Assembly (NCBI GenBank): GCA_003566715.1
Contig: PXCF01000142.1
Coordinates: 1 to 55,101, forward strand
DNA: 55,101 nucleotides
From: Cryomorphaceae bacterium
Lineage (GTDB): Bacteria > Bacteroidota > Bacteroidia > Flavobacteriales > Schleiferiaceae
Direction: 5' to 3'
Shown: piece by piece, positions 23,847-28,463 of the stretch
Layout: every line of letters starts with the position of its first letter
Numbering within the stretch: position 1 is the stretch's first letter
Program-made: the position numbers and the translations under genes
The notes under the pieces: model-generated
The model's database searches: none
Told to the model about the DNA's origin: nothing
The model's input: the letters and a program-made list of their open reading frames with translations, nothing else

Positions 23847-23883
23847 TTTTTTGGTTGTAAATTCGCCACACAAACACCTACCT

Positions 23884-24861
23884 ATGCGCTTACTTCTCAC
23901 CTTTTCCCTCCTTTTAGCTGGTCAGGTCTTATTTGCTCAAAGCCTGACTTGCAAAGTGACAGCACCCTCGGGATTAAACGTTCGCTCGGAACCTTCCACG
24001 AAAGGAAAAGTAATCGGAAGGCTACTTACCAATGACGTCATCGAAATTGAGGCAAAAACCTATGGCGAACTTACGGTTGATGGCATGCCCGGTTTTTGGA
24101 GAAAGACCGAAATAAAAGGCAAAGTGGGCTATGTTTGGGATGGGTATCTGGAGATTATTGGACGCGTTGTATCGGAGGAGCAGGCCGTTGAAGTAACGGA
24201 TACCATTAAACGCGAAACGAGTATTGAACTCAATCTTTTACTGGAAACCTATAACCACTGCGGGAACTTGTCACATGTTAATCCCAGTGGGTTTTGGTAC
24301 GCCTTTGTTCCCAATGAAAAAAATAACAACATCACTGTAAAGCCGGTAGAAATAACCGTTTGCTTAAGTAAAAACAGGTTGAGCAAGTTGATGGAGTTTG
24401 ATATTCAAACCAACAGCGACCTAAGATCTCTCTTTCTTATTGGCGCCAACCAAGAGCTGTCGGTTGCTGAAAACTTTAAAAGCATAGAAGATGAACTAAG
24501 AACTGCCGGCAGACAGGTTATGCCCGGACAAAGGCGATTGCTAGGCAGAGGGGTACACATGAGTGCCTTGGGAAATGTAAAAAGTCTGGATGGCGACTGT
24601 CCGAAAATTGACAATTACCGACTACATCTCTTTACCGATAACAAGAGACAAGACGTGTTGAACATGCTAACTTCCATTGGCGAATGTGGCGTTCCCGATT
24701 TATATTGGTACGGCGACATCACCGGTAACGGTTTTCCCGACATTATCATGGTAAGTGTGGAAGAAAACACCAATACCTTTTATTTACTAAAGCATTCATT
24801 TGATCGACCGGAGGCCCCCTATCAGGTGGTTTCTACGTTTACAATGGAAGATTGTGAATAG
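23884..24861 (+). CDS. Exported SH3-domain protein of unknown function
   Basis: A 325-residue protein with a signal peptide (about 1-18, LLLAGQVLFAQ). A bacterial SH3b domain follows at about 20-95: SGLNVRSEPSTKGKVIGRL and GKVGYVWDGYLEI are standard. The C-terminal part (about 115-325) has no recognised domain; it includes a region with DITGNGFPDIIMVS, resembling an FG-GAP-type acidic turn. SH3b domains in periplasmic proteins usually bind cell-wall peptides. ATG 23884 is chosen because it begins the signal peptide directly; a TTG 33 bases upstream would bury it. It lies 26 bases before the carboxyltransferase gene. Confidence 0.75.
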   Translation: MRLLLTFSLLLAGQVLFAQSLTCKVTAPSGLNVRSEPSTKGKVIGRLLTNDVIEIEAKTYGELTVDGMPGFWRKTEIKGKVGYVWDGYLEIIGRVVSEEQAVEVTDTIKRETSIELNLLLETYNHCGNLSHVNPSGFWYAFVPNEKNNNITVKPVEITVCLSKNRLSKLMEFDIQTNSDLRSLFLIGANQELSVAENFKSIEDELRTAGRQVMPGQRRLLGRGVHMSALGNVKSLDGDCPKIDNYRLHLFTDNKRQDVLNMLTSIGECGVPDLYWYGDITGNGFPDIIMVSVEENTNTFYLLKHSFDRPEAPYQVVSTFTMEDCE

Positions 24862-24887: not shown

Positions 24888-26561
24888 ATGAACAAAGCAT
24901 TTCAAGACATGAGCAAAACGGAAAACATCAAAAAAGACATTAACTTCAACAAAAACGAAGACCAGCTTCGCCTGATGGTTTCAGAGCTTAAGCAGCGATG
25001 GAACAAAGTGTCTGAAGGTGGAGGTAAAAAGAAAATTGACAAACTACACAGTCAGGGTAAACTGACCGCCCGTGAACGCGTGGCCTTTTTGCTCGACAAA
25101 AACCGCGATCAAATCGAAATTGGCGCCTTTGCCGGTGAAGATATGTACACCGAACACGGCGGTTGTCCCTCCGGTGGCGTGGTAGTGGTTTTGGGTTACG
25201 TTAAAGGACGCATGTGCTTGGTGGTGGCCAACGACGCCACGGTAAAAGCCGGTGCTTGGTTTCCCATTACCGGGAAAAAAAATCTTCGCGCTCAGGAGAT
25301 TGCCATGGAAAACCGCATTCCCATCATCTATCTGGTAGACAGCGCCGGGGTGTATTTACCCATGCAAGACGAAATTTTCCCCGACAAGGAAAACTTTGGT
25401 CGCATCTTTCGCAACAACGCCATGATGTCGTCCATGGGCATTACACAAATTGCCGCGGTTATGGGCAGTTGTGTTGCAGGAGGGGCCTACTTACCTATTA
25501 TGAGCGACGAAGCGCTAATCGTAGATAAAACCGGATCCATCTTCTTGGCCGGATCATATTTGGTAAAAGCCGCCATTGGTGAAGATGTCGACAACGAAAC
25601 GCTTGGTGGGGCGACTACCCATTGCGAGATTTCCGGGGTTACCGACTACAAGTCACCCGATGACAAATCAGCATTGACCACCATTCAAAACATAGTAGAC
25701 AAAATGGGTGACGCCCAAAAGGCCGGATTCAATCGCATAAAGCCAACCGCACCCGCCGAAGATCCCAACGATATTTACGGCATTTTACACCCCGAAAATG
25801 CCAAGCCATTCTCCACCCGTGCCATTATTGATCGCTTGGTGGACAACAGCGAATTTGAAGAGTACAAAGAAGGCTACGGCAAAACCATCATTACCGGATA
25901 CGGACGCATCGATGGCTGGGCTGTAGGTATAGTTGCCAACAACCGCGAAGTACAAAAAAACAAAAAAGGGGAAATGCAGTTTGGTGGCGTCATCTACTCC
26001 GACTCTGCCGATAAAGCCACCCGTTTTATTGCCAACTGCAACCAGAAAAAAATTCCGTTGGTCTTCTTACAAGACGTTACCGGATTTATGGTCGGCTCAC
26101 GCTCAGAACACGGCGGCATCATCAAGGACGGTGCAAAAATGGTCAATGCCGTGAGCAACTCCGTGGTACCAAAATTCACCATCATTGTTGGCAACTCCTA
26201 CGGAGCCGGTAACTACGCCATGTGTGGAAAGGCCTACGACCCGCGCTTGATCGCTGCGTGGCCCAACGCCAAATTGGCCGTGATGGGTGGTTCGCAAGCG
26301 GCCAAGGTGTTGCTGCAAATTGAAAAAGCCTCACTCAAAGCCAAAGGTGAAACCATCACCGAGGAAAAAGAAAAAGAACTACTCGATAGAATTCAGGGCA
26401 ATTACGACAGGCAAACCTCGCCCTATTACGCTGCCGCTCGTTTGTGGGTTGACGCCATCATCGACCCACTTGATACCAGAAAGTGGATCAGCATGGGGAT
26501 AGAAATGGCCAACCACGCCCCCATTGAACGATCATACAACACCGGGGTAATTCAGGTATAA
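24888..26561 (+). CDS. Acyl-CoA carboxylase carboxyltransferase beta subunit (methylcrotonoyl-CoA carboxylase-like)
   Basis: A 557-residue crotonase-fold carboxyltransferase that moves the carboxyl group from carboxybiotin to an acyl-CoA. The N-half has GKLTARERVAFLLDK and GGCPSGGVVVVLGYVKG; the acyl-CoA pocket region DSAGVYLPMQDEIFPD and the GSCVAGGAYLPIMSDE oxyanion segment are closest to the methylcrotonoyl-CoA carboxylase branch, which would mean leucine catabolism. The C-half has the second crotonase domain with FLQDVTGFMVG, GNSYGAGNYAMCGKAYDPR and MGGSQAAKV. No biotin carboxylase or biotin carrier gene lies nearby, so the partner alpha subunit is encoded elsewhere. The stop overlaps the next start by one base (TAATG). 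An internal ATG at 24909 is an alternative start. Confidence 0.9.
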   Translation: MNKAFQDMSKTENIKKDINFNKNEDQLRLMVSELKQRWNKVSEGGGKKKIDKLHSQGKLTARERVAFLLDKNRDQIEIGAFAGEDMYTEHGGCPSGGVVVVLGYVKGRMCLVVANDATVKAGAWFPITGKKNLRAQEIAMENRIPIIYLVDSAGVYLPMQDEIFPDKENFGRIFRNNAMMSSMGITQIAAVMGSCVAGGAYLPIMSDEALIVDKTGSIFLAGSYLVKAAIGEDVDNETLGGATTHCEISGVTDYKSPDDKSALTTIQNIVDKMGDAQKAGFNRIKPTAPAEDPNDIYGILHPENAKPFSTRAIIDRLVDNSEFEEYKEGYGKTIITGYGRIDGWAVGIVANNREVQKNKKGEMQFGGVIYSDSADKATRFIANCNQKKIPLVFLQDVTGFMVGSRSEHGGIIKDGAKMVNAVSNSVVPKFTIIVGNSYGAGNYAMCGKAYDPRLIAAWPNAKLAVMGGSQAAKVLLQIEKASLKAKGETITEEKEKELLDRIQGNYDRQTSPYYAAARLWVDAIIDPLDTRKWISMGIEMANHAPIERSYNTGVIQV

Positions 26562-27505
26562 TGTTCGATTTGCTGCACTTTGCGCTGTATGTTGTCCGAC
26601 ATATCTATCCGGCCAAAAAGATGCTGAAGCAACGTGCAGCACGACTCGACAAACATGCCCATAAGCGCATGTTTTCTCTGGCTCTATTTGCCGTGGCCGG
26701 CAGTTACCCCTACGTCGTTTGCCGGGGAAAGTCTTTGAGAAAAAACGAACGCCAATCGCTGATTTTACTCGGTGCCGCTACGGCGTTGTGCGATGACTTA
26801 ACCGATGAACATCAATATCCGCTAGAGGCATTGAAAAACCTCTTTGCTAACGACGTAGTGCACAATCCGGAAAACGCCACGGAAAGCGTATGCAGAGCGC
26901 TCTACAAAGAAGCGATGGCCATCCACCCCAATCCTGAGCTGTTTCTCAATAAACTCTTCACCGCTTTAGAAGCGCAAGAACAGAGTAAACGCCAATTGGG
27001 TAAGACTTTGGACTTTGAGAAACTTTGGCAAATTACCCAAGACAAAGGCGGCACAACCAACGTTTTGTTTCTGCACTTTCTTCACCACCTACCCAATAAA
27101 AGCGAAGAAGCCTTTGCACATCAAGCCGGTATTGCCCTGCAATTACTCGACGACCTCTTTGATCTGTATGAAGATTTGGAAGATGGCGTACACACACCCG
27201 TAACTGCCATTGAATCCTTAGACCAACTGGAAGCACTCTACACCGCTGAAGCTAGGGAAGCAATGGTCCTTTTGGGACAAATTTCTCCGAGTAAACGATC
27301 CGAATCAGCCGTCGGATTTATTTATGCGCGTGGCACCATTGCTTTGGATCAGTATCGAACATTTTGTCGAGAGAGTCATCAATCATTTCCTCCGAAACAG
27401 TACCGCAGGAAAGACCTCATCATAGATATGGAAAAAGGTGCCAATCTGCGCACAAATGTTGTTCGACGTTTTGTATTTTCGCGGCCGAAAGACACTTCAA
27501 TATAA
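26561..27505 (+). CDS. Class I isoprenoid-synthase-like protein of unknown product
   Basis: A 314-residue, largely alpha-helical protein. Two Asp-rich motifs are placed as in trans-isoprenyl diphosphate or terpenoid synthases: DDLTDE at 78-83, and DDLFDLYEDLED at 197-208 preceded by GIALQLL, which parallels the G..FQ..DD..D second motif of prenyl synthases. A KGGTTN segment at 162-167 sits where the conserved Lys-Thr/Gly precedes the second motif. It is otherwise divergent, and it lacks a convincing RR-containing chain-length region, so substrate and product cannot be named. The start overlaps the carboxyltransferase stop by one base, indicating translational coupling. The 3' end runs to within 7 bases of the transketolase gene. 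An Asp-rich helical protein that binds Mg2+ and diphosphate is inferred, not shown. Confidence 0.6.
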   Translation: MFDLLHFALYVVRHIYPAKKMLKQRAARLDKHAHKRMFSLALFAVAGSYPYVVCRGKSLRKNERQSLILLGAATALCDDLTDEHQYPLEALKNLFANDVVHNPENATESVCRALYKEAMAIHPNPELFLNKLFTALEAQEQSKRQLGKTLDFEKLWQITQDKGGTTNVLFLHFLHHLPNKSEEAFAHQAGIALQLLDDLFDLYEDLEDGVHTPVTAIESLDQLEALYTAEAREAMVLLGQISPSKRSESAVGFIYARGTIALDQYRTFCRESHQSFPPKQYRRKDLIIDMEKGANLRTNVVRRFVFSRPKDTSI

Positions 27506-27512
27506 CCATACC

Positions 27513-28463
27513 ATGATTTATAAAGACCAGGGATCAAAAGACACACGTTCGGGCTTTGGCGCCGGATTATTAGAACTTGGAAAAAACAATCCGCGCGTGG
27601 TGGCCCTATGTGCCGACCTCACCGGTTCACTAAAAATGGATGCCTTCCAAAGTGAATTCCCTGATCGATTTTATCAAGTGGGTATTGCCGAGGCCAATAT
27701 GATGGGCATTGCTGCCGGTTTGACCATTGGCGGAAACATCCCCTTCACCGGAACCTTTGCCAACTTTTCCACCGGTCGCGTGTACGACCAGATTCGTCAG
27801 AGCATCGCCTACTCCGGTAAAAATGTAAAAATATGTGCCTCTCACGCCGGAATTACCTTGGGTGAAGACGGAGCCACGCACCAGATACTAGAAGACATTG
27901 GTTTGATGAAAATGCTTCCCGGCATGGTGGTCATCAATCCCTGTGATTACAACCAAACCAAAGCGGCAACCTTGGCCATTGCCGAACACGAAGGACCGGT
28001 TTACCTGCGCTTTGGTCGCCCGAAAGTGGCCAACTTCACCCCGGAAGATATGCCGTTTGAGATTGGCAAAGCCATCGTACTTAAAGAAGGTACCGACGTG
28101 TCTATTTTTGCCACCGGGCACCTGGTATGGGAAAGTCTTCTAGCCGCCGAAGAATTAGAGAAAAAAGGCATCAGTGCTGAAGTAGTCAACATCCACACCA
28201 TCAAACCTCTCGACGAAGAGGCCGTGCTAAAAAGCATTGCCAAAACAGGTTGCGCCGTTACCGCCGAAGAGCACCAAATTTTTGGCGGATTGGGCGAGTC
28301 CATTGCCGGCTTACTGGCACGCAAACACCCTACGCCAATAGAGATGGTTGCCGTAAACGATAGCTTTGGCGAAAGCGGCACACCGGATGCACTCATGGAA
28401 AAATACGGATTGAAATCCGGTAACGTGGTGACGGCTGTAGAAAAAGTGGTCAAGCGTAAATAA
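27513..28463 (+). CDS. Transketolase C-terminal half (pyrimidine-binding and C-terminal domains)
   Basis: A 316-residue protein covering only the second and third domains of transketolase. It has the pyrimidine-binding domain (SGFGAGLLELGKNNPRVVALCADLTGS and FYQVGIAEANMMGIAAGL, with the Glu of GIAEAN that activates thiamine diphosphate), the YDQIRQSIAYSG region, and the C-terminal domain with AEEHQIFGGLGESIAGLLA. The N-terminal ThDP-diphosphate-binding half would be a separate protein, as in split transketolases, but it is not in the window. ATG 27513 is preferred over a GTG 75 bases upstream, which lies in the preceding gene. A terminator follows. Confidence 0.9.
   Translation: MIYKDQGSKDTRSGFGAGLLELGKNNPRVVALCADLTGSLKMDAFQSEFPDRFYQVGIAEANMMGIAAGLTIGGNIPFTGTFANFSTGRVYDQIRQSIAYSGKNVKICASHAGITLGEDGATHQILEDIGLMKMLPGMVVINPCDYNQTKAATLAIAEHEGPVYLRFGRPKVANFTPEDMPFEIGKAIVLKEGTDVSIFATGHLVWESLLAAEELEKKGISAEVVNIHTIKPLDEEAVLKSIAKTGCAVTAEEHQIFGGLGESIAGLLARKHPTPIEMVAVNDSFGESGTPDALMEKYGLKSGNVVTAVEKVVKRK

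Follow-up and report, generated by a model that had tools for sequence, protein, structure and literature searches.

The described systems closest to the protein considered here are trans-isoprenyl diphosphate synthases (PF00348, including IspA and octaprenyl diphosphate synthase), squalene/phytoene synthases (PF00494, and HpnD, TIGR03465), canonical class I terpene synthases with DDxxD and NSE/DTE motifs, non-canonical terpene synthases and the Bacillus peptide prenyltransferase ComQ. For terpene synthases the triad consensus is N/DDxxS/TxxxD/E (PMC7484799; PMC7192455), and non-canonical enzymes outside terpene gene clusters are documented (PMC11234867). In the available text of PMC7484799, a fungal geranylgeranyl diphosphate (GGPP) synthase became a terpene synthase when an Arg of its isopentenyl diphosphate (IPP) site was changed (R81P), and replacing 'KKxR' in an insect farnesyl diphosphate (FPP) synthase abolished synthase activity. 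Here we analyzed a stretch of 55,101 nucleotides from a Cryomorphaceae bacterium (contig PXCF01000142.1, hereafter the window) and, within it, the open reading frame (ORF) at 26561–27505, whose product is called the window protein. This protein represents a subfamily of class I isoprenoid-synthase-like enzymes that is real, under selection and, it appears, uncharacterised; most likely these are non-canonical terpene synthases.

In the literature on bacterial terpene synthases, including those of Bacteroidota, no paper on the family was found by title and the opening of the abstract. We presume that NCBI may give some members the name 'Class 1 isoprenoid biosynthesis enzyme'. A Bacillus velezensis gene carries this name (PMC11165630). 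The Bacteroidota names 'bacteroid', 'chitinophaga' and 'flavobacteri' are absent from the main text of PMC11234867.

Conserved residues of the family

We collected 41 members of the family, of 303–409 aa, from 30 Bacteroidota genomes, the whole-genome searches having covered only the phylum of the window. Three longer relatives (L034–L036) and a contig-cut copy of G002 (L008, 77 aa) stand outside the 41. Both Asp-rich motifs, K162 and Q194 are conserved family-wide (Table 1), which, with the profile signal to trans-prenyl synthases described below, supports the class I isoprenoid-synthase-like character proposed in the preliminary description. The motifs described there are present, with DDLTDE at 78–83, KGG at 162–164, G190IALQ194 and DDLFDLYEDLED at 197–208. 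After the invariant D198, D201 and D205, the most conserved residues are D78, K162, Q194 and T212 (40/41), followed by D82, Q139, S142, G190, R283 and D289 (37/41 each), and all 13 residues kept in at least 90% of members are present in the window protein. Residue 197 is Asp in 20 members, Asn in 20 and Glu in one, Asn giving NDxxDxxxD. The motifs are not universal: D79 is replaced in 8/41 members, and L033 lacks both D82 and Q194.

Table 1 Features of the ORF and its immediate neighbours, with residue conservation among the 41 members.
Feature	Position	Strand	Details
ORF, class I isoprenoid-synthase-like	26561..27505	+	ATG to TAA, 314 aa
First Asp-rich motif DDLTDE	26792..26809	+	codons 78-83; D78 40/41, D79 33/41, D82 37/41
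QEQSKRQ	26975..26995	+	codons 139-145; Q139 37/41, S142 37/41, Q145 31/41
KGG	27044..27052	+	codons 162-164; K162 40/41, G163 34/41, G164 31/41
Second Asp-rich motif, GIALQLLDDLFDLYEDLED	27128..27184	+	codons 190-208; D198, D201, D205 41/41
C-terminal RKDLIIDMEKGAN	27407..27445	+	codons 283-295; R283 37/41, D289 37/41, M290 36/41, N295 32/41
Acyl-CoA carboxyltransferase, upstream (methylcrotonyl/propionyl-CoA carboxylase beta type)	24888..26561	+	neighbour only
Transketolase C-terminal half, downstream	27513..28463	+	neighbour only

The mean conservation of columns D78, D82, D198, D201 and D205 was 0.976, versus 0.41 for 34 other acidic positions, and none of 100,000 random five-column sets reached this value. 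The family and its neighbours of at least 80 aa amount to 374 proteins (41 family, 333 others) from 35 stretches of 30 genomes. The two-motif pattern with its spacing was present in 37/41 family members, and in 0/333 of the neighbouring non-family proteins and 0/333 of their reversed sequences. Among 256 six-frame open stretches of at least 60 aa in the window, the only one with the pattern was the 314-aa ORF itself.

Comparison with the 85%-identical L012 gave a nonsynonymous divergence (dN) of 0.094 and a synonymous divergence (dS) of 0.98 (near saturation), which indicates that the ORF is under purifying selection; the dN of the neighbouring carboxyltransferase was only 0.015 in the same comparison. 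These values, and the retention of all 13 highly conserved residues, speak against the idea that the protein has, in the window's lineage, lost catalysis or become regulatory while keeping the fold. Such a loss of activity would fit the long tree branches (median end branch 0.66) and a clade (L028, L029, L031 and L033) that is losing motif residues, L033 among them; for the window protein we consider it quite improbable.

Comparison with known isoprenoid synthases

Like trans-isoprenyl diphosphate synthases, the family has a first DDxxD motif and a Gln shortly before [ND]DxxDxxxD, and prenyl synthases were the better profile–profile match of the two families compared. The control prenyl synthases came from the same bacterial family as the window; of the controls, 30/31 prenyl and 29/31 phytoene synthases were kept (L060, L064 and L081 dropped by length or position). 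The signatures GKxxR and RRG, which we take to mark the IPP-binding site of prenyl synthases, are absent from the family: GKxxR[PAG] was found in 0/41 members versus 28/30 control prenyl synthases, RRG after the first motif in 0/41 versus 29/30, and a looser RR pattern in 1/41 versus 30/30. The family further differs from prenyl synthases in AQxxS (27/41 members, versus GQxxD in 28/30 controls), in a K[GA][GA]-type motif that precedes the second motif by a set interval (40/41 versus 0/30), and in an inter-motif spacing of 112–124 (median 120; 120 from D78 to D198 in the window protein), not 128–131 as in the 30 prenyl synthases. In the window protein, QEQSKRQ probably occupies the place of GQxxD. 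A diverged but ordinary chain-elongating trans-prenyl diphosphate synthase would account for the QxxDDxxDxxxD second motif as well as the profile signal of the family, but neither GKxxR nor RRG occurs in any member and the genome already has two normal prenyl synthases, so that we regard this explanation as very improbable.

Squalene/phytoene synthases resemble the window protein in a collinear weak match over residues 59–209 and in the inter-motif spacing, which is 120–121 in the 29 controls. The spacing and the top single-protein matches, to SQS_PSY (17.0 bits, cut-off 26) and HpnD (17.2 bits, cut-off 278.6), would suit a head-to-head or irregular coupling enzyme. In contrast, the phytoene-synthase motifs R..D[DE]..D and Q..N..RD were each found in 0/41 members versus 29/29 controls, all 41 lacking both the Arg ahead of the first motif and a QxxNxxRD second motif, and the profile–profile score to phytoene synthases lies within the shuffle null. 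In the available part of PMC10960109, replacement of the first Asp of the second motif by Asn, seen here in 20/41 members, is proposed for irregular coupling, but a D-to-N change abolished irregular coupling there, and the window protein has D197. An enzyme of this coupling type is thus improbable. The preliminary description had called the protein unlike known prenyl, squalene or phytoene synthases; the missing subtype signatures bear this out, although matches of 17 bits to both SQS_PSY and HpnD remain, as does a second motif like that of prenyl synthases.

Canonical class I terpene synthases share DDxxD with the family, and their NSE triad is spaced like [ND]DxxDxxxD; unlike in these enzymes, the S/T and E positions of the triad are both Asp. 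The 20/41 members with NDxxDxxxD come near the N/DDxxS/TxxxD/E triad described for terpene synthases (PMC7484799). Non-canonical terpene synthases of classes IB to IF resemble the family in class I chemistry without canonical motifs and, in a characterised case, in a location outside terpene clusters, as far as the available text of PMC11234867 describes them. The class IB motifs DYLDNLxD and DY(FLW)IDxxED were found in 0/41 members each, and RxxKD, from the class ID set D(N/D), ND and RxxKD, in 2/41 versus 15/333 unrelated proteins. The comparison covered the motifs of classes IB and ID, and the family may be identical with class IE (SalTPS) or IF (NpsTPS).

Given the absence of the IPP-site signatures and the precedent of the altered IPP-site Arg (PMC7484799), chain elongation is unlikely, and the enzyme more likely acts on one substrate alone or transfers to another acceptor. 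Absent IPP-site residues and intact metal motifs would also suit a class I prenyltransferase that passes an allylic group to a non-IPP acceptor (a peptide, quinone precursor, aromatic or lipid). ComQ provides the model: as described in the accessible part of PMC5331326, it is a prenyl-synthase-like protein related to FPP and GGPP synthases, its first motif is essential and its acceptor is a Trp of ComX. The varied gene surroundings of the family likewise fit an acceptor made elsewhere. However, the second motif of ComQ is reduced to one Asp (PMC5331326), whereas that of the family is complete, with three kept in 41/41 members; comQXPA-like loci are reported from Firmicutes only in the available text of PMC4008528; and no peptide gene recurred among neighbours of at least 80 aa, shorter ORFs not having been examined. 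We consider such a ComQ-like enzyme unlikely, though the likeliest of the alternatives.

The superfamily assignment is based on motif conservation and the sum of weak matches, not on one strong match. With hhalign (nulls of 100 column shuffles; a 13-member core rather than all 41), the family scored 33.5 against prenyl synthases (probability 20%, E 0.0012), above the best shuffle (23.4) and the reversed comparison (20.7). With 17 members the scores were 38.8 (43%) for prenyl and 21.4 (1%) for phytoene synthases, while the known distant pair of phytoene and prenyl synthases, used as a control, reached 33.0 (24%) versus a best shuffle of 30.5. A 41-member profile separated the 30 prenyl synthases from 333 unrelated neighbours and from reversed sequences with areas under the curve (AUC) of 0.996 and 0.988, respectively, and the 29 phytoene synthases with 0.953 and 0.867; rows within groups are related by descent, hence no p-values are given. 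Among the 20 sequences listed in a PDB search with the 41-row profile, 16 were prenyl synthases (E 0.09–1.6), a single octaprenyl synthase accounting for 11 of these in different versions, and four were growth hormone, the top row included. A single-sequence PDB search with the window protein had a best E of 0.6 and gave no isoprenoid synthase. Across the 41 members, Pfam matches at E ≤0.1 were polyprenyl_synt in 11/41 (best 0.00016), SQS_PSY in 3/41 and Terpene_synth_C in 3/41. Profile searching, proposed as a check in the preliminary description, ranked prenyl synthases above unrelated proteins, but the window protein stayed below the Pfam and NCBIfam cut-offs, polyprenyl_synt itself scoring 13.9 bits (gathering score 27).

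Several observations weigh against this assignment or against a terpene synthase in particular. The window protein reaches none of the Pfam and NCBIfam cut-offs, and the hhalign match of the core to prenyl synthases spans 35 columns, in the second-motif region only; the same core scored 17.7 against phytoene synthases, inside the shuffle null (maximum 22.3). Fourteen further Pfam families match one member each, Lyase_aromatic (6.5e-05) with a lower E than polyprenyl_synt; in NCBIfam, two members match HpnD, and nine other families have a single matching member each; histidine ammonia-lyase has the lowest E (4.8e-05), and SMC (0.0003) is another single-member match. The strict NSE triad [ND]D[LIV]x[ST]xxxE occurs in 0/41 members, and, the relatives having been gathered by similarity, retained motifs were favoured. 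In the clustering of the 374 proteins no neighbour recurs beyond single lineages; among neighbours searched against families only those of one divergent member, L146, look isoprenoid-related, the rest being judged by eye, and 44/46 genomes of L146's bacterial family have no match to L146. Finally, an AlphaFold2 model from two 85%-identical sequences (the window protein and L012) was all-helical at a mean predicted local distance difference test score (pLDDT) of 41.4 and a predicted template modelling score (pTM) of 0.34. In a Foldseek search with this low-confidence model, isoprenoid synthases, among them LvqB4, which we take to be one, held ranks 1–36 and 41 of the 50 rows shown (389 in total), many rows being repeats of a few enzymes. 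As 0/389 had E ≤0.001 (E ≥0.22, TM score ≤0.28, root-mean-square deviation ≥12 Å), the rows may serve as a hint only to the fold.

Distribution and gene neighbourhood

Two members are 85% and 47% identical to the window protein, and the remainder 17–29%. Among relatives with a named record, the closest is in a Cryomorphaceae metagenome-assembled genome (85% identical), and L012 was the sole match in a scan of genome contigs. Matches were found in 8/99 near genomes (3/42 genera), 11/395 genomes across the phylum, 20/395 in the class and 10/296 with an enlarged profile; each count includes the window's own genome, the draws overlap, and the longer relatives account for 3 of the 11 phylum matches and 2 of the 10 enlarged-profile matches. 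No relative was encoded in any of 57 pattern stretches of viral contigs, and plasmids gave no match to the window protein, L127 or L034. In the tree, support is good for 19/38 inner branches and weak for the deep forks, and the window's clade of three is firm; end branches are long. The family is patchily distributed and fast-evolving.

A genome has between one and three copies, and several contain tandem pairs. Paired diverged paralogues, most of which share a few bases of overlap, lie at L039:6356-8336, L041:3473-5409, L132:5313-7281, L134:5150-7118, L137:5055-7023 and L138:5131-7102; the paired products could work as heteromers. A clade with decaying motifs sits beside lepA (L028:5720-6763, L029:5029-6009, L031:6319-7545 and L033:6333-7322), and L033 may have become inactive or have taken on a new role. 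This lepA, named by eye, exemplifies a lineage-restricted neighbour, being found in four genomes of one family. The longer relatives (L034:5203-6444, L035:5233-6495 and L036:6200-7441; 413–420 aa) have KGG and the second motif in common with the family and a different N-terminal half. Compared profile to profile, they score 110 against it (probability 98.4), and the 93 matched columns include AQxxS-like, KGG and second motifs; they are, however, about 100 residues longer, have Y[ST]DNxxD in the first-motif region and reach no Pfam cut-off. An apparently secreted protein of 387–395 aa without Pfam matches adjoins a family member in two genera, in differing orientations (L027:6126-7289 and L030:4879-6066).

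At the locus itself, the sequence TAATG (26559–26563) joins the ORF to the upstream carboxyltransferase gene, its ATG sharing the last base of the upstream stop codon. The ORF had been described as overlapping the start of that gene; it is the end that is overlapped, by one base. The carboxyltransferase scored 524 bits to a chain named propionyl-CoA carboxylase beta, 461–513 to methylcrotonyl-CoA carboxylase beta chains and AccD1, 357 to geranyl-CoA carboxylase and at most 286 to other propionyl-CoA carboxylase chains. The resemblance to a leucine-degradation carboxyltransferase suggested earlier therefore stands for methylcrotonyl-CoA carboxylase beta, while the metabolic link drawn from it is unsupported: the pairing was seen in the four genomes of the genus that have the 3' end of the gene (G000, G001, G002 and G003; the gene of G004 is cut by a contig end) and in none of the examined stretches of other genomes with a family member. 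As the pairing is confined to the genus in these stretches, a metabolic link was set aside as a guide to function. Upstream of the carboxyltransferase gene, 23851–24861 encodes a protein that carries a bacterial SH3 domain (SH3_3) and is apparently secreted, and a similar gene has the same position in G003 (L042).

Downstream, the transketolase half likely starts at the ATG at 27513, seven bases past the stop of the 314-aa ORF, the L012 homologue beginning at the corresponding ATG; the GTG-started frame listed at 27438 hence overstates the overlap. Among the listed ORFs, judged by eye and with no search for the other half, no N-terminal transketolase half immediately adjoins 27513–28463. Elsewhere, the genome of the window encodes a single phytoene synthase along with two prenyl synthases; the window gene is therefore not alone in encoding an enzyme of this kind.

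At L146:3719-7118, the divergent member is flanked on the same strand by a geranylgeranyl-reductase-family FAD gene (score 226.6 bits, cut-off 158.8) and an S-adenosylmethionine (SAM)-dependent methyltransferase gene. PDB matches of the methyltransferase include geranyl diphosphate 2-C-methyltransferase at 68 bits, others leading at 100 bits. This is possibly a terpenoid gene cluster; as one locus in one genome it gives only a hint. The second match to L146 among the 46 genomes is the member L127, in G656.

Proposed reaction and significance

For the window protein itself, we give about an even chance to a non-canonical class I terpene synthase that ionises an allylic diphosphate without elongation, a view drawn from the sequence comparisons, as are the fold, metal binding, substrate and reaction that go with it. 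The protein would be an all-helical enzyme of the class I isoprenoid synthase type, in which D78/D82 and D/N197-D198-D201-D205 would bind the Mg2+ ions holding the diphosphate of an allylic substrate (FPP or GGPP, for example), with K162 and R283 helping to bind the diphosphate. Departure of the diphosphate would leave a carbocation, and this cation would be cyclised, rearranged or quenched. It would most likely not be joined to IPP, because the residues that hold IPP in prenyl synthases are absent from the family.

More tentatively, and with the odds somewhat against it, the family may be a Bacteroidota class in its own right, of either non-canonical class I terpene synthases or acceptor-directed prenyltransferases, patchily inherited and repeatedly tandem-duplicated, each copy perhaps making its own terpenoid. 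This class would be defined by DDxxD - AQxxS - K[GA][GA] - Q..[ND]DxxDxxxD - RxxLIxDM, motifs distinct from those of classes IB and ID and of prenyl and phytoene synthases.

Most terpene synthases come to light through motif and profile searches, and the window protein lies below the cut-offs of the scanned Pfam and NCBIfam models. For product discovery in Bacteroidota, the family offers around forty candidates that share a well-defined motif set and include several tandem pairs. If the proposed reaction is true, the family would supply a natural prenyl-synthase-like enzyme without an IPP site, and would inform how terpene synthases originated from chain-elongating enzymes.

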